Below are positions 2,834 to 59,589 of a DNA stretch of 64,000 bases, one piece after another. The DNA lies in the NCBI RefSeq assembly GCF_016772315.1, contig NZ_CP053482.1:1426001-1490000 (forward strand), given 5' to 3'. Below the pieces are notes generated by a model. That model was not told the origin of the DNA. It made no database searches and worked only from the letters and a program-made list of their open reading frames with translations. The position numbers were made by a program, and so were the translations under genes. The stretch's first letter is position 1; the number at the start of each line of letters is the position of its first letter. Origin of the DNA: Thiothrix subterranea (GTDB lineage Bacteria > Pseudomonadota > Gammaproteobacteria > Thiotrichales > Thiotrichaceae).

Positions 2834-3750
2834 TTAAATGTGAATTAAGGGCAAACAACAAGCCATAGTGAAAGCCATTATCATCCACGTATACTGCCTG
2901 ATAGACGACTGGCTGAAGAAACTGCCGGTTATTTTGCGCCACCGTGGTTTCAGCCCGGTCTTCAGTGATGCCGAAGTGCTGACATTGGAGGTGGTGGCTG
3001 AATTTATGGGATATGAAGAGGACAAACAGGCTTGGGAGTATTTCCGTCGCCACTGGCTGGAGTGGTTTCCCAAGCTTCCCAGCCGTAGCACTTATGTCCG
3101 CCAAGCGGCACATTTGTGGCGGGTAAAGCAGCAGCTTCATGCTGACCTGTGCAGGGAAATGGGTGTGATGGGAAACGGCGTGCACCGCGTGGATGGTTTC
3201 CCCCTGAAGCTGTGTAATTTTCGGCGTGCTAACCATTGCCGTTTGTTCGCGGGATTGGCGGGCTACGGCTACTGTGCATCCAAAGACCAGCACTACTATG
3301 GTTTTCAGGCCGTCTTGTTGGTGAGCGGTTGTGGTGTGGTCACGGGCATCAACGTGATGGCAGCCAATCATGATGAAGCTGACGGCATCTGGGAATGCCT
3401 GCATGGACAAACGGGCCTCATGCCGGGGGATAAGGGGTTTATCCGACCTATCCACCAAGCAGGGTTGCAAGCCATCGGCCTGAATTTGCAAACGCCACTG
3501 CGCCGCAATATGCAAGATGATCGCCCCAAGGAATATGTCCGGGAACTCATGCGGGAGCGGCGTTTGGTCGAGACGGTCATTGGGCAATTGACGGAGCGTT
3601 TCCATATCCAGCGTGTCCGGGCACGGGATAGGTGGCATCTGACCGTCAGGATTTTTCGCAAAGTGTTGAGCCATACCGTGGCAGTATTCCTGAATAGAAT
3701 GCTTGGCAACTCATCGTTACAGTTGGTCAACTTGCTGGTGTAACGGCGGG
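2834..3750 (+). mobile_element. IS982-like element A, right end not defined
   Basis: The left end carries the same 21-base terminal sequence (starting TTTAAATGTG) that bounds the element at 11245-12235, and about 50 bases continue to match the right end of that element, including the first codons of the transposase. No matching inverted repeat was found after the transposase stop at 3743, so the right end is lost or different. Confidence 0.55.
2868..3743 (+). CDS. DDE transposase, IS982-like
   Basis: This 291-residue protein has the IS982-type N-terminal block FSDAEVLTLEVVAEFMG and a DDE core with VDGFPL, DKGF and a C-terminal ...RLVETVIGQLTERFHIQ helix. It starts at GTG 2868, just inside the left terminal sequence, and reads to TAA 3743 without interruption. 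It is probably full length but may be orphaned from its right end. Family assignment is from motif resemblance; an IS4-superfamily neighbour is the alternative. Confidence 0.7.
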   Translation: MKAIIIHVYCLIDDWLKKLPVILRHRGFSPVFSDAEVLTLEVVAEFMGYEEDKQAWEYFRRHWLEWFPKLPSRSTYVRQAAHLWRVKQQLHADLCREMGVMGNGVHRVDGFPLKLCNFRRANHCRLFAGLAGYGYCASKDQHYYGFQAVLLVSGCGVVTGINVMAANHDEADGIWECLHGQTGLMPGDKGFIRPIHQAGLQAIGLNLQTPLRRNMQDDRPKEYVRELMRERRLVETVIGQLTERFHIQRVRARDRWHLTVRIFRKVLSHTVAVFLNRMLGNSSLQLVNLLV

Positions 3751-49845: not shown

Positions 49846-51792
49846 ATGACAGAAATGAAAATCTTCCCAGTACCCGCCGAATTTGCTGCCCAAGCAAACA
49901 TCAATGCCGAACAATACGCCACGATGTACCAGCAATCGGTTGACGATCCGTCAGCGTTCTGGGGCGAACAAGCCGAAAAATATTTAAGCTGGTCAAAGAA
50001 GTGGGACACGGTTCTCGACTGGAGCTTTGGCGCAGATGACCTGCATATCAACTGGTTCACTGGCGGCAAACTCAACGTTTCCTACAACTGCCTTGACCGT
50101 CACCTCGACACCCGTGGCGACCAAGTAGCGATCATTTGGGAAGGCGACAGCCCGAACGAAGACCGCAAAATCACTTACCGCGAACTGCATACCGAAGTAT
50201 CTAAATTTGCGAACGTGCTGAAAGGCCGTGGCGTGAAAAAAGGCGACCGCGTATCCATTTACCTGCCAATGATTCCAGAAGCAGCCGTGGCAATGCTGGC
50301 GTGTGCGCGTATCGGCGCAATGCACTCCATCGTATTCGGCGGTTTCTCACCGGATGCACTGCGTGACCGTATCCAAGATGCGGAATGCGGCGTGGTCATT
50401 ACTTCTGACCAATCCATGCGCGGCGGCAAAAAAGTGCCATTGAAAGGCAACGCTGACAAAGCGATGGATCAATGCCCAACCGTTCACACCTGTATCGTGG
50501 TACAACGCGGTGGCGATCCGGTTAAATGGAACGACACTCGTGATATTTGGTATCACGACGCGGTAGCGGCGGCTGATGCGGATTGCCCGCCGGAAGACAT
50601 GGAGGCGGACGACCCACTCTTCATTCTCTACACTTCTGGTTCTACCGGTAAGCCTAAAGGCGCGTTGCACACCACTGGCGGCTATCTGCTGCAAGCGGCA
50701 ATGACCCACAAAACCGTGTTTGACTATAAAGACGGCGAAGTTTACTGGTGTACGGCCGACGTGGGCTGGGTAACAGGTCACTCTTACATCGTGTACGGCC
50801 CGCTGACCAACGGCGCAACCACGCTGATGTTTGAAGGCATCCCCACTTACCCAGATGCTGGGCGTTTCTGGGATGTGTGCGACAAGCACGACGTTTCCAT
50901 TTTCTACACCGCCCCAACCGCTATCCGTATGTTGATGGGGCAAGGCGAAGAGCTGGTTAACCGCGCTAAACTCGACAAACTGCGCTTGCTGGGTACGGTC
51001 GGTGAACCCATCAACCCCGAAGCATGGCATTGGTACAACCGCGTTGTTGGTCGTGGTCGTTGCCCAATCGTGGATACTTGGTGGCAGACTGAAACCGGCG
51101 CACACATGCTGACCCCATTACCGGGTGCAACCGCATTGAAACCGGGTTCGGCAACTACCCCATTCTTCGGCGTACAACCTTGCCTGTTGGATGACAAAGG
51201 CGTGGAAATCGAAGGCAATGGCGTGGAAGGCTTGCTATGCATCAAAGCCCCGTGGCCTTCCATGATGCGCACCATTTACGGCGACCATAAGCGTTTCTAT
51301 GAAACCTATTTTGCGATGTATCCGGGTTACTATTTCACTGGCGACGGCGCACGTCGTGACGAAGACGGTTACTACTGGATCACTGGGCGCGTGGATGACG
51401 TATTGAACGTTTCCGGGCATCGTCTGGGTACGGCGGAAATCGAATCTGCGTTGGTACTGCACCCGAAAGTTGCGGAAGCAGCGGTTGTTGGCTACCCGCA
51501 CGAGCTGACCGGTCAAGGCATCTACGCTTACGTCACCTTGATGGCGGGCGAAGAAGGTACGGATGAGCTGAAAGCTGATCTGAACAATCTGGTGCGTAAG
51601 GAAATTGGCCCGATTGCCAAGGTTAATATCATTCAATGGGCACCGGGCTTACCGAAGACCCGTTCCGGTAAAATCATGCGCCGGATTCTGCGTAAGATTG
51701 CCGCAAATGAAATTGACGGTCTGGGCGATACCTCCACACTGGCTGACCCAAGCGTGGTGGATAACCTGATCGACTGCCGCGAAAACAAGTAA
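49846..51792 (+). CDS. acs: acetyl-CoA synthetase
   Basis: Acs converts acetate, ATP and CoA to acetyl-CoA. At 648 residues it matches E. coli Acs (652). Motifs: [16 protein letters not shown] (P-loop), [32 protein letters not shown] and the acetylatable lysine in [13 protein letters not shown] near the C-terminus. A GAGGAG Shine-Dalgarno lies before ATG 49846. A 159-base leader separates it from ttcA, so it probably has its own promoter. Confidence 0.95.
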
Positions 51793-52125: not shown

Positions 52126-52374
52126 ATGCAAACCCTGCTTACCCGCAAAACCATCTCCATGACCGAGTTACGTGAACCCGCCAAAGTATTCAATCAGGCT
52201 GGGGATAGCCCTATCGCTATTTTGAACCGCAATCAGGTAATCGGCTATTTTGTCCCCGTGGCTGCGGTTGAAAATATCCAGACCCGCGCCGCAGGGCTGG
52301 ATGTCATCAAACAGGCTTTTGCCCAACAAAAAGCACGGCTTGCCCCTGCTTTGGTTTATCTTCGGGATAAATGA
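52126..52374 (+). CDS. Phd/YefM-family antitoxin
   Basis: An 82-residue antitoxin: ISMTELREPAKVFNQAG is the DNA-binding N-terminal motif and PIAILNRNQVIGYFVP the dimer strand pair. The C-terminal half (QKARLAPALVYLRD) should wrap the toxin. The gene overlaps the toxin gene by 4 bases, which ensures coupled synthesis, and probably autorepresses through the operator at 52068-52100. Confidence 0.82.
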   Translation: MQTLLTRKTISMTELREPAKVFNQAGDSPIAILNRNQVIGYFVPVAAVENIQTRAAGLDVIKQAFAQQKARLAPALVYLRDK

Positions 52375-52751
52375 TGGAGTTCGTGCTGCTAACGGTGGAG
52401 GATGTGGAATACCTCCACGAACAAGTGCTGTATCCGGGTGAACTGGCGGGGTCGGCTGGTGATAAGTCGCTGGCTGGCGTATTGGCAAGAGTGGAAAACC
52501 GTCTGGCTTACGGGATGATTAGCGATGCCTATGAACTGGCTGCTACCTATGCCGTGGTCTTGGCGGTCGGTCACGTATTCAACGATGGTAATAAGCGCAC
52601 CGCTTTTACATGCATGAATATCAGTCTAGCCCTGAACGGCATTGAACCCACCTTTGATGTAATGAAAGCCGCTGATCTGATCATTGAAGCCGCCCAAGGT
52701 CGGGTGGATGAAGCCGCTTTAGCAGAATGGCTACGCCAAACTGCTACTTGA
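52371..52751 (+). CDS. doc: Doc-family toxin (Fic fold)
   Basis: A 126-residue Doc protein with the Fic motif HVFNDGNKRTAFTCM around residues 64-78 and the N-terminal VEDVEYLHEQVL. Doc phosphorylates elongation factor Tu and blocks translation. Start is ATG 52371 or the adjacent ATG 52374. The last-residue AEWLRQTA is typical. The gene converges with the TumA-like gene. Confidence 0.88.
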   Translation: MMEFVLLTVEDVEYLHEQVLYPGELAGSAGDKSLAGVLARVENRLAYGMISDAYELAATYAVVLAVGHVFNDGNKRTAFTCMNISLALNGIEPTFDVMKAADLIIEAAQGRVDEAALAEWLRQTAT

Positions 52752-52815
52752 ACTACACCGCGAGGCACGAAACCCATCATCCCCCAACACCATCAACACA
52801 ACCACACGCTGAAGA

Positions 52816-52846
52816 TGGTGGGATTCGCAGGCTCATCCCACCCTAC
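52816..52846. repeat. 31-bp hairpin repeat, copy 1
   Basis: Identical to 53566-53596. The core GGTGGGAT is complementary to ATCCCACC across a 10-base loop, so each copy is a hairpin. It lies 65 bases after doc and before the convergent TumA-like gene. Confidence 0.75.
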
Positions 52847-52879
52847 AAAACATTATTCGAGTTTGACCCTTTCGGTTTC

Positions 52880-53239
52880 TTACGCTGCTTTTTTCAGCGT
52901 GAAATCGGTATGAATCGCCACGTAAGGTGTGCTGATGCCGTTTGCACCCTGCTCAATGACACCTTCGGCGAGCAAGACATCCAAGTCTTCTTGCAGATGC
53001 TGGGTACTCGCCCCCATTAAGCGGGATAATTCGGGCAAGCTGACGGGCTTGGTTTGTTGTTGCAAACACGCAATGATTTCCCAACGCTTCAGGGTAAATA
53101 CTCTAAACAGTTGGGCAGGGGTGGCATAGGTTAATGCTTCGCCTTGATATTCAACGGTTTTCCATGCACGGATGGCACTTTGACGCATATCTCGCATGGC
53201 ACTTTGTGAGTCCATGAGACTAATCGTTAAGGTTCTCAT
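52880..53239 (-). CDS. HVO_A0114-type winged-helix protein, TumA-like antitoxin
   Basis: A 119-residue protein with a winged HTH near 60-110 (FTLKRWEIIACLQQQ, LPELSRLMGASTQHLQ, DLDVLLAEGVIEQ). This matches the HVO_A0114 family of putative DNA-binding proteins, which act as antitoxins when paired with DUF6516/TumE proteins. It overlaps the upstream gene by 4 bases. Order toxin then antitoxin is that of TumE/TumA modules. Confidence 0.7.
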   Translation of the reverse strand: MRTLTISLMDSQSAMRDMRQSAIRAWKTVEYQGEALTYATPAQLFRVFTLKRWEIIACLQQQTKPVSLPELSRLMGASTQHLQEDLDVLLAEGVIEQGANGISTPYVAIHTDFTLKKAA

Positions 53240-53523
53240 AGGTCATCTCTCCGTTTGGCAATGTCGTCATAAAAATCTTGCAGAAGCTGCTCGATATTGG
53301 TGAATTGATACGCTTCCTCGTGATCGCCGTAATGCCGATGATCACCTTTGGGTCGTTCATTATCATAACCAACCGTGCGTTCTCGGCTATCACCGTAAAA
53401 CAAACGGTACTTATAACAGTGGGGACTGCCCAACACTGGCTGAGGCACCTCCCAAATGACCATTTCCATCTTTTTACCATCGGCAAAAGTGTGGCGTTTA
53501 CGGTGAATTAATGTTGCTGTCAT
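53236..53523 (-). CDS. DUF6516 protein, TumE-like toxin
   Basis: A 95-residue protein with family blocks RKRHTFADGKKMEMVIWEVP, HCYKYRLFYG, TVGYDNERPKGDHRHYG and EQLLQDFYDDI. These are those of DUF6516, annotated as TumE-family toxins. ATG 53523 is used because the ORF extends upstream only by chance codons. It is followed by the HTH gene with a 4-base overlap. Confidence 0.7.
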   Translation of the reverse strand: MTATLIHRKRHTFADGKKMEMVIWEVPQPVLGSPHCYKYRLFYGDSRERTVGYDNERPKGDHRHYGDHEEAYQFTNIEQLLQDFYDDIAKRRDDL

Positions 53524-53565
53524 GTACCCAATAGTGGCAACAGCAATCCGGGTTGTCAATGAAGC

Positions 53566-53596
53566 TGGTGGGATTCGCAGGCTCATCCCACCCTAC
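53566..53596. repeat. 31-bp hairpin repeat, copy 2
   Basis: Second exact copy of the repeat at 52816-52846, in the same orientation, 43 bases upstream of the TumE-like gene. The two copies bracket that module. Confidence 0.75.
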
Positions 53597-53759: not shown

Positions 53760-54302
53760 TCACTGACCGGAACGAACTAACCGCACCGCAACATCAGCGT
53801 AACGGTCGTCCCAAACGTCACTACCGTCGTCGAAGTAGACAAACCAAGCGTCGGACGCATAATCTGGATAATTTACCACCGGACTGCTGCTCCAGACCCA
53901 ATAGGAGCCACTGCCGGGAAACACCTCGGTATTAATGGCAGGGTCAACCCGGCAATGTTCCACAATACTACTCAATTCCTTCTGGTCGGGTACACGCCAG
54001 CCCTGCCCAGCGGTTTGTGCCAGATTTAACGCCGCTGCCCACTCCATGCCGTTGGGTTGCCCGGTACATTGGTCGTCCAGATAATGGGTTGCTGTGCCGT
54101 TGTCAGTAAAGGTTTGCCCTTCCAGACAGCGTTTCCACACCAGCCCCGTCATCTGATGCGTGGCAGTACCATCGCTGTTGAAGGTAAAGGCACTGGTCGG
54201 GGTGCTTTGCTCCATTGCGGTGTTGGTGCAGGTTTGGGCGGTTGCCAGCCCTGACAGCAATAGCCCACCCAGCAGGGCGCAGCTTAAAAGTCGTTGGTTC
54301 AT
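53760..54302 (-). CDS. secreted DUF1566 protein with a DGR variable repeat (target protein 1)
   Basis: A 180-residue protein with signal peptide (MNQRLLSCALLGGLLLSG, cleavage near ATAQ) and one DUF1566/Lcl-type domain of C-type-lectin-like fold: GLVWKRCLEGQTF, MEWAAALNLA, GWRVPDQKELSSIVEH. The C-terminal 32 codons from ASDAWFVYF to VRLVRSGQ are a variable repeat relative to the template at 55240-55335. DUF1566-type domains are typical DGR targets because the fold tolerates surface residue change. It likely binds a ligand at the cell surface or outside. Terminal stop is shared in context with target 2. Confidence 0.85.
   Translation of the reverse strand: MNQRLLSCALLGGLLLSGLATAQTCTNTAMEQSTPTSAFTFNSDGTATHQMTGLVWKRCLEGQTFTDNGTATHYLDDQCTGQPNGMEWAAALNLAQTAGQGWRVPDQKELSSIVEHCRVDPAINTEVFPGSGSYWVWSSSPVVNYPDYASDAWFVYFDDGSDVWDDRYADVAVRLVRSGQ
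53763..53858 (-). repeat. DGR variable repeat 1 (VR1)
   Basis: A 96-base segment at the 3' end of target 1. Against the template it differs at 21 positions (hand count), 18 of them where the template coding strand has A. The invariant 3' stretch GCGGTGCGGTTAGTTCGTTC is the likely initiation-of-mutagenic-homing (IMH) site. After the stop, VR1 and VR2 share TGATTTTGCTTTTTGC, which the template lacks. Confidence 0.85.
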
Positions 54303-54490
54303 TTCTCGTCTCCTGTTTCAAATTGATTACCCCTCACCCCAACCCCGCACCCAGCCGCTTACAGCGTCGTCCCTCAAGGGGAGAGGGGCTAAGAGAGGTT
54401 CATTCCGTTTCTGCGGTGCGTTTCAGCCAGCCGCACGCTTGTTTGCCTACCCGTACCGCTCCCGTCATATTCCTTTTGCTGCGATTTTAA
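54303..54490. other. spacer between target 1 and the DUF559 element
   Basis: 188 bases with no full gene. On the minus strand a short frame ends GKQACGWLKRTAETE before a stop at about 54397; it could be the end of the deleted reverse transcriptase or of a small accessory gene, but neither can be shown. A CTCAAGGGGAGAGGGG-type hairpin of the dispersed kind occurs at 54330-54390. Confidence 0.35.
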
Positions 54491-55095
54491 GTATCTACAC
54501 AAGTTTGGGATACCTCTTCACTGCATCACTCCGAACGTCCCCCCATCCCCAGCCTTTCCCCCACAAGGGGTGAAGGGGGCAAGAGGTGCTGCCTATCGGT
54601 GAATATTGCGTGGCAGGGCTAAGTTGTCGACACTGGTGGGATGGAAAAACAAAACAACAAGATACATCGTGACCTTGCCCGAAATCTACGCAAGAACATG
54701 ACCACACCAGAGCAGCAGTTATGGGAAGCCTTGAGAAAACGCCAACTCGATGGCTACCGTTTTCGCCGTCAAACCCCATTGGGACGTTATATTGCTGATT
54801 TTGTTTGCTTGGAAGCACGTTTAGTGATTGAACTGGATGGCAACCATCATCATGAGCAGCAAGGTTACGACCGCGAACGCGACCATTGGATGCAACAACA
54901 AAATTTTCAGGTGCTACGTTTCTGGAATCACGAAATTCTGAACCATCAGGAAGTCGTTTTACAACAAATCTACCACGCTTTACACAGACAGCCGTAGCAT
55001 CTCTTACCCCCTTCACCCCTTGTGGGGGAAGGGCTGGGGATGGGGGGACGTTCGGAGTGATGCAGTGAAAAGGTATCCCAAACTTGTGTAGATAC
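54491..55095. mobile_element. 605-bp element with 100-bp inverted repeats encoding a DUF559 endonuclease
   Basis: Arms 54491-54590 and 54996-55095 are complementary over 100 bases with 4 mismatches, starting GTATCTACACAAGTTTGGGA. Each arm contains a further CCCTTCACCCCTTGTGGGGG-type palindrome. The element carries one gene and lies exactly where the DGR reverse transcriptase reading frame breaks off. No target duplication was seen. It matches no insertion-sequence family that I know. Confidence 0.75.
54641..54997 (+). CDS. DUF559 (Vsr-like) endonuclease
   Basis: A 118-residue protein of the DUF559 family: ARNLRKNMTTPEQQLWEALR, DGYRFRRQTPLGRYIADFVC with the catalytic Asp, LVIELDGNHH and the helix EVVLQQIYHAL. 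The fold is that of the very-short-patch-repair/PD-(D/E)XK nucleases. It fills the element between the inverted repeats, and its stop lies in the right arm, so it may promote spread of the element much as homing nucleases do. That role is inferred. Confidence 0.85.
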   Translation: MEKQNNKIHRDLARNLRKNMTTPEQQLWEALRKRQLDGYRFRRQTPLGRYIADFVCLEARLVIELDGNHHHEQQGYDRERDHWMQQQNFQVLRFWNHEILNHQEVVLQQIYHALHRQP

Positions 55096-55231
55096 CTATG
55101 GACAAGGTAGTCAGTTCATCCAGCAGTTTGCGTTCAAACTGCAACACCCCCGCCGACTTGCGCTTGTAACGGCGGCAAACCTTGTAAGCGTGGTAGCATT
55201 GTTGAAAACTGCCGAATTGTTCGCTTTCCAT
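55096..55231 (-). pseudogene. DGR reverse transcriptase, N-terminal fragment
   Basis: From ATG 55231, 6 bases after the template frame's stop, the minus strand encodes MESEQFGSFQQCYHAYKVCR, then YKRKSAGVLQFERKLLDEL and TTLSI, before running into the DUF559 element. An aromatic start, AYxxCRRxKR and FExxLLxEL are the usual first 45 residues of DGR-type reverse transcriptases. Fingers, palm (YxDD) and thumb are absent. The family call rests on this short match and on its position directly after the template repeat, the normal DGR layout. Confidence 0.6.
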
Positions 55232-55239
55232 TTCTCTCA

Positions 55240-55335
55240 CTCACCGGAACGAACTAACCGCACCGCATTATCATTGTTACGGTTGTTTTGTGTGTCATTA
55301 CCGTTGTTGAAGTTGACATTCCAAGCGTTGGACGC
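55240..55335 (-). repeat. DGR template repeat (TR)
   Basis: A 96-base copy of the variable repeats in which every variable codon is A-rich: AAC or AAT at 11 codons plus ACA, CAA and GAT. Conserved codons (GCG TCC, GCT TGG, GTC, TTC, GGT, CGT, and the last eight codons) are identical in all three copies. As protein it would read SNAWNVNFNNGNDTQNNRNN. About 30 of 96 bases are A. It lies immediately before the reverse transcriptase start and lacks a host gene. Confidence 0.85.
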
Positions 55336-55558
55336 TAACCCGCGCACTTCCCACCACCCCGCATAGCCTAACGGTGACACGGGGCAGCCTATTCATGCAC
55401 ATTGGCGGCGCGGGCACTCAGTGAGAAGGGTCACTTGCCAAGCCGCCACGGGCTGGCAATTCTGCCCCCACCGCTGGCGAGGGGGACAAAGCCAACCTCA
55501 CCAGCCGATGTAACACCAATAACAACCTTCGGCTCCTAAACCATTGCAAAAAGCAAAA
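55336..55558. other. spacer between template repeat and target 2
   Basis: No supported gene. The minus strand upstream of the template reads LGYAGWWEVRGLAS, loosely like the region before the VRs, so the template may derive from a decayed third DUF1566 gene. Several short GC-rich inverted stretches occur (for example GCCCCCACCGC near 55465). Confidence 0.4.
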
Positions 55559-57190
55559 TCACTGACCGGAACGAACTAACCGCACCGCACTACCACTGTC
55601 ACGGTCGTACCAACCGTCAACACCGCTGTAGAAGCTGACATACCAAGCGTAGGACGCATAACCTGCATACGGTGTTCCCGACCAATACCACCATGAATTC
55701 GTATTCGGGAAGTAAGCCGTATCAATGGAAGGATCGCTGCGTGACAGATCGGCGATGGAGCGCAACTCGGTCACGCTCGGCATCCGCCAGCCGCTGCTTG
55801 CACCACACCAGCCTGCCGTATTGACCGCCTGCACGTAACCTTGTGTGTCGCATTGGCTGGTGGCGGGGCTACCACAACTACCGCCATTGGGTGTGCCTGC
55901 ACCCCCACCGTTTTTGGCGTTATCTGTGTTGTACCAAGTGTATGTCCAGTCCTTGTCGTGCAAACCGCTATCATCGGTTTTCACTTCCCAGATCAAGCCA
56001 GTGACATTATCTTTCACACAAGCCCACGGGGTGCTGGCATAAGCGGCAGACTGGTCAGCCAGCGCCACCCCAGCGGAATCCAGCTTGGTAAAATTGAAAC
56101 CCCGATGACCATCGGCATCATTATTGGTGGCTTGGGTGGCATCGCGCCCGGTTTCGGCATCCTGCCCCGGAAAACCCGCCTGTGGGCAAGCAGCGTTTGC
56201 TGAGGCATTACCGCATTGGGTAATGCCTGTGTCGTTGAGTTTGGCAGTGAGAGTGGGGGCAGCATTGACGGTGACAACCACCGTATCTTCCCCGCCCGCC
56301 CCGTTGTTATCCCGTACCACCAGCTTAAAAGTCAGGATTTCATCCGCCGTCACATCCGGCAACACCACTGTCGGGGTGGCGGTGGTAGCATCCTGCAATA
56401 CCGCTGGCGTACCCCCAACCTGCTCCCAAGCATAGCTGACGATATTGCCATCCTCATCACTGCTGGCACTGCCATCCAACAACAACACTGCCTTTTCAGC
56501 CGCTGCAAAATCCTCACCGGCATTCGCCAGCGGAGCGGTGTTTTCTGCACGTACCACCACCGTGATTTTCCCCGGCTTGCCCGGTGACTTGCCATCGCGG
56601 ACGGTGAAATTGAAAGAATCCTTGCCCACAAAGCCCGTTTTCGGCGTATAGGTGACAACATTGCCGCCCTTCAGCACCACCGTGCCGCCTTTTTTGCTTT
56701 TCTTATCCGGCTTATAGCTCAGGGTATCACTATCAACATCCGACCCAGACAGGGCAATCTCCCGTGCCGTGCTTCTGACTGCCAAGACTTCGCTGCTTTG
56801 CGCCAACGGCTTATCATTGCTGGCCTGCACCGTGATTGACACCGTGGCGGGCGACGAATCAAGTTGCCCGTCATTGGCTTTGAAGGTGAAACTGTCCGGC
56901 GAACCCTCTGGGCTGAAATAATCCGGGTCGGGGGTGTAAACCATCGCCCCGCGTTTCAGCGCAAGCTTGCCGTGGGCAGGCGGGCTAACGATGCTAAAGG
57001 TCAGTTTCTGCTTTTCCGGGTCAACCCCCTTGAGGGTAACGGGCTTGGGCTTATCTTCCTTGGTGATTAAATTCGCTGCGACGGCAACGGGCTGCTGGTT
57101 CTCCGCAGCCCAACCCATACCCGGCAATAACAATATTGCCGCCAAAAACACCCCAAGCCATTGGCTAAGTGAATACCCTGCTTTCTTCAT
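55559..57190 (-). CDS. secreted cadherin/PKD/DUF1566 protein with a DGR variable repeat (target protein 2)
   Basis: A 543-residue protein: signal peptide (QWLGVFLAAILLLPGMGWA); two cadherin-like Ig repeats about 30-125 and 128-215 (FTFKANDGQLDSSPATVSIT; GKDSFNFTVRDGKSPG); a PKD domain about 217-308 (ANAGEDFAAAEKAVLLLDGS, EDGNIVSYAWEQVGG); and a DUF1566 domain about 310-543 (GLIWEVKTDDSGLHDKDWTY, SGWRMPSVTELRSIADLSR). Its last 32 codons, ASYAWYVSF to VRLVRSGQ, form variable repeat 2. The Ig and PKD repeats look like a stalk that displays the variable domain. It lies upstream of the template on the same strand. Confidence 0.88.
   Translation of the reverse strand: MKKAGYSLSQWLGVFLAAILLLPGMGWAAENQQPVAVAANLITKEDKPKPVTLKGVDPEKQKLTFSIVSPPAHGKLALKRGAMVYTPDPDYFSPEGSPDSFTFKANDGQLDSSPATVSITVQASNDKPLAQSSEVLAVRSTAREIALSGSDVDSDTLSYKPDKKSKKGGTVVLKGGNVVTYTPKTGFVGKDSFNFTVRDGKSPGKPGKITVVVRAENTAPLANAGEDFAAAEKAVLLLDGSASSDEDGNIVSYAWEQVGGTPAVLQDATTATPTVVLPDVTADEILTFKLVVRDNNGAGGEDTVVVTVNAAPTLTAKLNDTGITQCGNASANAACPQAGFPGQDAETGRDATQATNNDADGHRGFNFTKLDSAGVALADQSAAYASTPWACVKDNVTGLIWEVKTDDSGLHDKDWTYTWYNTDNAKNGGGAGTPNGGSCGSPATSQCDTQGYVQAVNTAGWCGASSGWRMPSVTELRSIADLSRSDPSIDTAYFPNTNSWWYWSGTPYAGYASYAWYVSFYSGVDGWYDRDSGSAVRLVRSGQ
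55562..55657 (-). repeat. DGR variable repeat 2 (VR2)
   Basis: A 96-base segment at the 3' end of target 2. By hand count it differs from the template at 20 positions, 17 of them at template adenines. The three other differences (C in ACA, C in CAA, G of the last codon GAG) occur at the same sites in VR1, so they are fixed template/target differences rather than mutagenesis. Confidence 0.85.
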
Positions 57191-58581: not shown

Positions 58582-59589
58582 ATGACACAGGATACACGTC
58601 TTGAGCAATTAACTCAGTGGGTCAACAGCCTGCCCAACTGGGAGCACGCCGTCTTAGAACCTGCTTCGGCAGATGCCAGCTTCCGGCATTATTTTCGCGC
58701 CCGTGGCACCGACGGTACCGCCATTTGCATGGATGCCCCGCCCGATAAAGAAGACATCCGCCCGTTTGTGGAAGTGACGCATTTGCTGAGTGCGACCGGC
58801 GTTCATGCCCCGCAATTATTGGCGCAAAATTTGCTGGATGGCTTTCTGCTGCTGGAAGACTTAGGCAATACCAGCTACCTGAGCCAGCTTACCCCCGCTA
58901 CTGTTAAAGACTTGTATGCCGATGCCCTGCACGCGCTGTTGCAACTTCAGCAAGCCGACTGTGACCATTTGCCGGTTTACAACGAGCGTATCTTGCGCCG
59001 TGAAATGGAATTAATGCCGGAATGGTTCCTGAAAACCCACCTAGGCTTCAGCGATGAGCAGATTCCACACGAACTGATTCAACAAACCTTTGAAGACCTG
59101 ATCGAATCGGCTATCGGGCAACCTGTCGCCTTTGTTCACCGCGATTACCACAGCCGCAATCTCATGGTCACAACCGCCAATAACCCCGGCATTATTGACT
59201 ATCAGGACGCGGTATTAGGGCCTGCAACCTACGATCTAGTGTCCTTGCTGCGTGACTGCTACATCGTTTGGCCACAAGCGCAAGTCGAATGGTGGGTCGA
59301 TTGCTACCGCAAAGAAGCCATTGCTGCGGGGGTGCTACCGCCAGTAGATCAGCAAACCTACCAGCAATGGTTTGACCTCATGGGGTTGCAACGCCACCTT
59401 AAGGTGCTGGGGATTTTTGCCCGCCTTAATCACCGTGACGGTAAACCGGGCTATCTGGATGACCTGCCTCTGGTGCTGAGTTACGTGCTGGAAGTCGGCT
59501 CACGCTACCCCGAAACCAGCGAGCTAATCGAATGGATGCGGCGGGCAGGCATTCCCGAACGCATCGGCACTGTCCACATTCCCGCCTGA
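58582..59589 (+). CDS. amgK: N-acetylmuramate/N-acetylglucosamine kinase
   Basis: AmgK phosphorylates the anomeric carbon of MurNAc and GlcNAc in the recycling route that bypasses de novo UDP-MurNAc synthesis. The 335-residue protein has the aminoglycoside-phosphotransferase fold: FVHRDYHSRNLMV (catalytic Asp), GIIDYQDAVLGPATYDLVS (metal-binding Asp). The stop overlaps the murU start (TGATG), the standard pairing. Confidence 0.9.
   Translation: MTQDTRLEQLTQWVNSLPNWEHAVLEPASADASFRHYFRARGTDGTAICMDAPPDKEDIRPFVEVTHLLSATGVHAPQLLAQNLLDGFLLLEDLGNTSYLSQLTPATVKDLYADALHALLQLQQADCDHLPVYNERILRREMELMPEWFLKTHLGFSDEQIPHELIQQTFEDLIESAIGQPVAFVHRDYHSRNLMVTTANNPGIIDYQDAVLGPATYDLVSLLRDCYIVWPQAQVEWWVDCYRKEAIAAGVLPPVDQQTYQQWFDLMGLQRHLKVLGIFARLNHRDGKPGYLDDLPLVLSYVLEVGSRYPETSELIEWMRRAGIPERIGTVHIPA

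Follow-up and report, generated by a model that had tools for sequence, protein, structure and literature searches.

The locus at positions 53,760 to 57,190 of the stretch of Thiothrix subterranea DNA analysed here (64,000 nucleotides, referred to below as the window and numbered from its first letter) is very probably a recently inactivated diversity-generating retroelement (DGR) of the Avd type. On the minus strand it consists, in order, of target gene 2, a template repeat (TR), a stump of a reverse transcriptase (RT) gene, a 611-bp element bounded by inverted repeats and carrying a DUF559 gene, a stump of the accessory gene Avd, and target gene 1. More specifically, the TR and the variable repeats (VRs) are nearly intact and the RT is disrupted, the combination that marks an inactivated DGR. 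The locus is a clean end-state of such a system: both targets and the template can still be read, as can what is left of RT and Avd, and an intact relative shows the missing parts.

The divergence among three 96-nt copies of one sequence, all on the minus strand, reveals the mode of their origin. VR1 (53763-53858) forms the 3' end of target gene 1, the TR (55240-55335) has adenine at 30 of its 96 bases, and VR2 (55562-55657) forms the 3' end of target gene 2. A first-pass annotation, made from the letters alone, had given these positions exactly and had read the copies as a template with two variable repeats produced by A-specific mutagenic homing; its hand counts of 21 and 20 differing sites, 18 and 17 of them at template adenines, were exact on recount. 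The A-bias check that it proposed, run on the three aligned repeats, gives 21 differences over 96 sites between TR and VR1, namely 18 of the 30 template adenines and 3 of the 66 other bases (Fisher one-sided p = 5e-9), and 20 over 96 sites between TR and VR2 (17/30 and 3/66; p = 3e-8). In the reverse direction, used as a control, no mismatch falls on a VR adenine (0/12 in VR1, 0/13 in VR2), and the direction of copying was therefore from TR to VR. Both the bias and the control support the homing interpretation. Between VR1 and VR2 there are 17 mismatches, distributed over codon positions 1, 2 and 3 as 9, 8 and 0, which is the mark of AAY codons rewritten to NNY. The corresponding counts are 9, 8 and 0 in a related locus with a full RT (L107) and 10, 9 and 3 in the intact relative described below (G054), against 16, 15 and 17 in an RT-less pair (L091).

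Both targets end in an Lcl_C (DUF1566) domain with the VR at the 3' end of the gene, and both frames are intact; the first-pass annotation had described the outer copies as the ends of DUF1566 genes. Target gene 1 (53760..54302, minus strand) encodes 180 amino acids (aa) with, by eye, a signal-peptide-like N-terminus; target gene 2 (55559..57190, minus strand) encodes 543 aa with bacterial Ig/cadherin-like repeats, a PKD domain and the C-terminal Lcl_C domain. Target 1 matches C-type lectins only weakly (E 0.09). In a published DGR survey, DUF1566 is the commonest target domain, a C-type-lectin fold is given for such targets, and 271 of 948 DGRs have more than one VR (PMC6642488). We infer C-type-lectin-like ligand display by both target proteins.

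The enzymatic engine of the system is missing. The RT remnant (55100..55231, minus strand) corresponds to codons 2-45 of the RT of G054, at 80% identity and in an open frame, and is then cut off; a second comparison places the homology at codons 2-50 with 73% identity, and a short RT-like open reading frame (ORF) lies at 55013-55240 on the same strand. The RT-like start seen by the first-pass annotation is thus genuine, but its homology stops after about 45 codons. The Avd remnant (54415..54462, minus strand), the sole trace of an accessory gene (Avd or HRDC) at the locus, covers codons 102-117 of the G054 Avd, with 14 of 16 identical. Relative to G054, 1,687 bp are gone between the two stumps and 637 bp stand in their place, nearly all of it the DUF559 element, so that the DGR seen by the first-pass annotation is a remnant and no longer complete. 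No ORF with the DGR RT motifs (I/V/L)GxxxSQ and YxDD is present at the locus; one chance SQ match, in an ORF at 2834-3091, is far from it and lacks YxDD. Across the genome as a whole (4 contigs, 4.08 Mb), RVT_1 picked out three RTs, none close to the subfamily of the G054 RT: two (L001 and L002) were judged by eye not to belong to DGRs, and the third belongs to a DGR of another kind. A bAvd search of the whole genome returned a best match of only E 0.39.

A related genome with an intact RT beside the same template, proposed by the first-pass annotation as a check, does exist. When 115 genomes, including that of the window, were searched with the DNA of the TR and RT start, a single long match was found elsewhere (83% over 247 bases), in G054, a genome of the same family and another genus, on a 19.8-kb contig (C391, locus L033). 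This locus resembles that of the window in the order target2-TR-RT-Avd-target1, in its target domains and in its A-specific VRs, and differs in its whole RT and Avd, in the absence of a DUF559 element between them and in a TR that carries AATTGG. It is complete, with target 2 (553 aa), TR, RT (508 aa), Avd (131 aa) and target 1 (236 aa). Its RT has the motifs IGNLTSQ and YVDD, scores above the Pfam RVT_1 cut-off and matches a PHROG RT family at 3e-101. In Pfam the Avd is recognised as bAvd, above the cut-off, and its PHROG match is 'Avd protein of DGR' (2e-23); against NCBIfam DivGenRetAVD it scores 49.9 bits, below that model's cut-off of 80. In each G054 VR 17 of 28 template adenines are changed, and 2/68 and 5/68 other bases. 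The best match of the G054 RT among solved structures is 8ub7_A (E 1e-32), an entry titled only 'Reverse transcriptase' which we take to be the RT of the DGR of Bordetella phage BPP-1. The BPP-1 DGR is phage-borne, complete and has one target; it shares with the window system an Avd-type RT, adenine mutagenesis between TR and VR and a C-type-lectin-like target.

The comparison with G054 also places the last homing in time. Of the three non-A differences shared by both VRs, which the first-pass annotation had counted, two fall within a TR hexamer, ACACAA (55288-55293, minus strand). At these six positions the TR of G054 reads AATTGG, and the last four letters are TTGG in both window VRs. The third is the last codon, GAG in the TR and CAG in both VRs, as in G054. 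With the G054 hexamer put in its place, mismatches fall on 16/28 adenines and 1/68 other bases in VR1, and on 15/28 and 1/68 in VR2, the sole remaining non-A change being GAG/CAG at the repeat end. Because G054 carries the other hexamer and both VRs end theirs in TTGG, the change in the TR came later than the last homing, and no rewriting of the VRs has followed; the hexamer thus puts these events in order without reads, the homing first and the TR change second. The remaining non-A sites all agree, and the last homing was therefore recent relative to the split from G054, whose TR differs from that of the window at 14 of 96 sites (82/96 identical). At the repeat ends, where a DGR would have an IMH in the VR and an IMH* in the TR, the TR reads GAG-TGA and both VRs read CAG-TGA followed by a common TGATTTTGCTTTTTGC; these ends are at most candidates for such sites. 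T-rich ends similar to those after the window VRs follow the VRs of G054.

By the mechanism of known DGRs, a working form such as that of G054 would reverse transcribe the TR RNA with RT and Avd, with errors at adenines, and the cDNA would replace the 3' ends of the two flanking DUF1566 genes. In the window lineage about 1.7 kb of RT and Avd has been lost, and the 611-bp DUF559 inverted-repeat element stands in the gap; the simplest route would be that the element was once present both in RT and in Avd and that the DNA between these two copies was deleted. Without an engine, both targets would stay in their last-written variants and the TR would be free to drift. The system would once have varied two surface-type proteins rapidly; with the RT replaced by a small foreign insert, both look frozen in their last variants.

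Several points weigh against this interpretation. A second element copy or a footprint of the deletion route was not found. One genome per species was compared, and cells with an intact engine could coexist. The hexamer argument depends on one intact relative plus both VRs. Finally, an intact-looking DGR of the HRDC/FGE type elsewhere in the genome (L003; C1:3871427-3875014) could in principle supply RT in trans. This second DGR has a 345-aa RT, an HRDC-domain partner and, by eye, an FGE-type target, and between its TR (L038 5750-5871) and VR (L038 3909-4030) 12 of 33 template adenines and 0 of 89 other bases are changed over 122 aligned bases.

Continued activity of the window DGR, either in trans through this HRDC-type RT or through a subpopulation with intact RT and Avd, is improbable, even with a precedent in Thiohalocapsa PB-PSB1, where trans diversification has been described and intact and disrupted RT variants coexist (PMC10907252). 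The present TR hexamer is missing from the VRs, and the present TR has therefore not been written into them. The RT of the second DGR belongs to a different subfamily (28% identity to the G054 RT over 285 aa) and has its own, unrelated TR, and the genome yielded no Avd in the bAvd search. A DNA search of the genome with the repeat (E up to 1) found no second TR of the window kind: besides the TR, VR1 and VR2, only C1:528439-528535 among its eight matches covers the repeat, and this is a VR-like stretch with a weaker match. Much less probable still is an assembly artefact in an otherwise intact genome; assemblies can collapse at repeats, and the genus has scattered pieces of the element's arms, but the genome, in 4 contigs, is rated 100% complete, the contig that holds the window is 4.04 Mb long, searches of the assembly did not recover the missing part of the RT, and the TR has drifted as expected without an engine. 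That the repeats are ordinary paralogous DUF1566 gene ends can practically be dismissed: neighbouring DUF1566 domains are common in the genus (16 gene pairs, that of the window included), but this explanation is refuted by the A-specificity, and against it also stand the lack of third-codon-position differences between the VRs, the match of the RT remnant to an intact DGR RT, and RT-less genes of the genus (L037, L091, L092; five comparisons) whose VR zones share only 33-42 of 90 bases, ungapped.

Inactivation of the DGR, with lack of present activity as its likely consequence, has parallels. The DiGReF survey reports DGR RTs broken by a stop, a frameshift or an insertion element beside fresh TR/VR pairs with only A changes (PMC3521204); the window locus resembles these in its broken RT and its A-only changes, and differs in that RT and Avd are largely deleted and the TR hexamer has changed. 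In Thiohalocapsa PB-PSB1, inverted-repeat arrays replaced the RT gene in DGR 4 and 5, intact variants occur in the population, and a sister DGR with a matching TR acts in trans (PMC10907252). The window locus is similar in that an inverted-repeat (MITE-like) sequence replaces the RT, but here, unlike in PB-PSB1, the two arms enclose a DUF559 gene and the search for a sister TR found none. The accessible portions of the literature on DGRs in Thiothrix and Methylobacter, on degraded or orphan DGRs and on DUF559 mobile repeats yielded no description of the window locus. Inactivated DGRs are thus already known, and this locus is a further case.

Engine loss is also seen among relatives of the locus. 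A search with target 2 found 16 named loci, four of them with an Avd or RT trace. L107, from a metagenome-assembled genome (MAG) of Desulfobulbales, has a full RT. In L106 (Thiobaca trueperi) RT codons about 125-345 are gone, both targets are kept, and the TR/VR differences are A-biased (13 A to 2 non-A, and 15 to 3). L115 (a Methylobacter MAG) has only the start of Avd between two targets, whose VR zones differ by 6, 8 and 0 at codon positions 1, 2 and 3. L108 (MAG) has target 2 and the tail of Avd; a TR and the tail of an RT can also be made out by eye, and the contig stops shortly beyond. Most of the engine is thus gone in three other relatives, which still have target genes. No other RT of the window family was found at E 1e-5 in the genomes of L106, L108 and L115, two of which, being MAGs, may be incomplete. 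Full-length RTs with both motifs occur in L033, L039, L107, L190 (whose DUF1566 match is weak, E 0.008), L191 and L192; L159 has an interrupted RT frame, which may reflect a sequencing error. The 11 loci inspected, a non-random sample, thus comprise six with a full RT, four remnants (the window included) and one interrupted; this count leaves out L193-L196 (partial RT matches, no DUF1566 match) and the FGE-type DGRs L094 and L095. A scan of 25 loci for A-biased repeats, with L034 and L190-L196 outside it, found pairs in L033, L039, L106 and L107 and none in the other 21, L108 and L115 included, though gapped or weaker pairs would be missed.

The placement of targets on both sides of the template, which the first-pass annotation had singled out as notable, recurs in this clade and is not special: it is found in L033, L107 and L192 (full RT) and, among the remnants, in L106 and L115. 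In L191 the two targets lie together on the same side. It is tempting to speculate that the clade's two-target DUF1566 DGRs repeatedly discard the engine soon after use and keep the fresh targets, as one-off generators of a repertoire that is then frozen, but we consider this rather doubtful; if true, mobile elements with inverted repeats, the DUF559 unit among them, would be one means of freezing. In the window locus and the three other engine-less loci, the fate of a repertoire after engine loss is testable by strain comparison. Two further observations concern reading frames in these relatives. In L107 (9167-11728) the RT and the next DUF1566 target form one 853-aa open frame with the TR upstream inside it, a possible RT-target fusion. 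In L106 (8735-9103) the Avd frame runs on into the TR, so that the TR is translated as the tail of Avd.

Other DUF1566 genes of the genus were compared with the TR in its hexamer-read form. The gene at C1:528439 (L034) was considered and rejected as a third target, with 13/28 adenines and 10/68 other bases changed (p = 0.0015). With a TIR-like N-terminus by eye and a VR-like DUF1566 end, L034 2438-3505 differs from its copy in another species, genome G009 (L036 4939-6006), at 2 of 1068 positions, the VR being identical, against 22 of 1056 in the nearby recA; rather than a target in present use, it looks like a relative that has been frozen. A VR-like end in G010 (L035 5821-6789) shows changes at 18/28 adenines and 4/68 other bases (p = 4e-9), and this genome has no RT match to the window RT family; this end is a further VR that lacks an engine. 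The corresponding values are 17/28 and 14/68 (p = 2e-4) in G003, and, at two ends in G007, 12/28 and 20/68 (p = 0.15) for one and 18/28 and 19/68 (p = 0.001) for the other.

In genomes G000-G015, 84 rows of DUF1566 matches include 22 pairs of neighbouring domains, six of them within one open frame. For the genus genes compared, the idea that paired DUF1566 genes are DGR fossils finds no support in the five comparisons noted above (three in L037, one each in L091 and L092), with 33-42 of 90 bases of the VR zone shared, as compared with 73 in the window, 68 in G054 and 73 in L107; in this ungapped comparison an indel lowers the score, and the 23 genes recognised by a C-terminal motif leave most pairs outside it. 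The window pair is the only DUF1566 pair with an RT trace within 8 kb, among 84 of 125 genus rows typed (weaker ones dropped) and 18 RT places, the G009 RT rows being judged by eye only. G009 has 18 RT matches, several with identical scores, which look like multi-copy group II introns.

The inserted element (54488..55098, 611 bp) has arms of 129 nt (54488-54616 and 54970-55098) that are 87% complementary, and encloses a DUF559 (Vsr/REase-like) gene of 118 aa (54641..54997, plus strand; Pfam E 4e-42). Of 56 other genomes searched, 9 contain matches of at least 300 bases (80-87% identity), and each of these belongs to the same genus; shorter pieces, chiefly from the arms, gave up to 33 matches per genome, with at most 10 candidates scored in each. 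Where inspected, the other copies occupy other loci; by eye, the G010 copy lies between what we take to be type I restriction genes, those of G002, G003 and G011 lie near presumed BREX-like or restriction genes, and those of G004, G007 and G012 lie between a presumed CHAT-type gene and recQ. Within the genus, the DUF559 gene between REP-like inverted repeats thus acts as a small mobile unit would (window 54488-55098, L096-L104), and we know of no description of it as a mobile element. No target-site duplication is visible by eye at the element junctions in the window, and a single-stranded stem in the left arm is not favoured, as 172 of 200 shuffled sequences gave folds that were equally or more stable.

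From acs (49846-51792) to the gene at 58582-59589, genomes G005, G011 and G015 have only about 540 bp, and G003, G007, G009 and G012 carry other genes there; the locus therefore lies in an insertion hotspot. The cargo of G007 includes a DUF1566 pair without an RT between its members. In the window, toxin-antitoxin-like cargo is also found next to the locus, at 52126-53586: a Fic/Doc gene and its small partner, together with a TumE-like toxin accompanied by an HTH gene.

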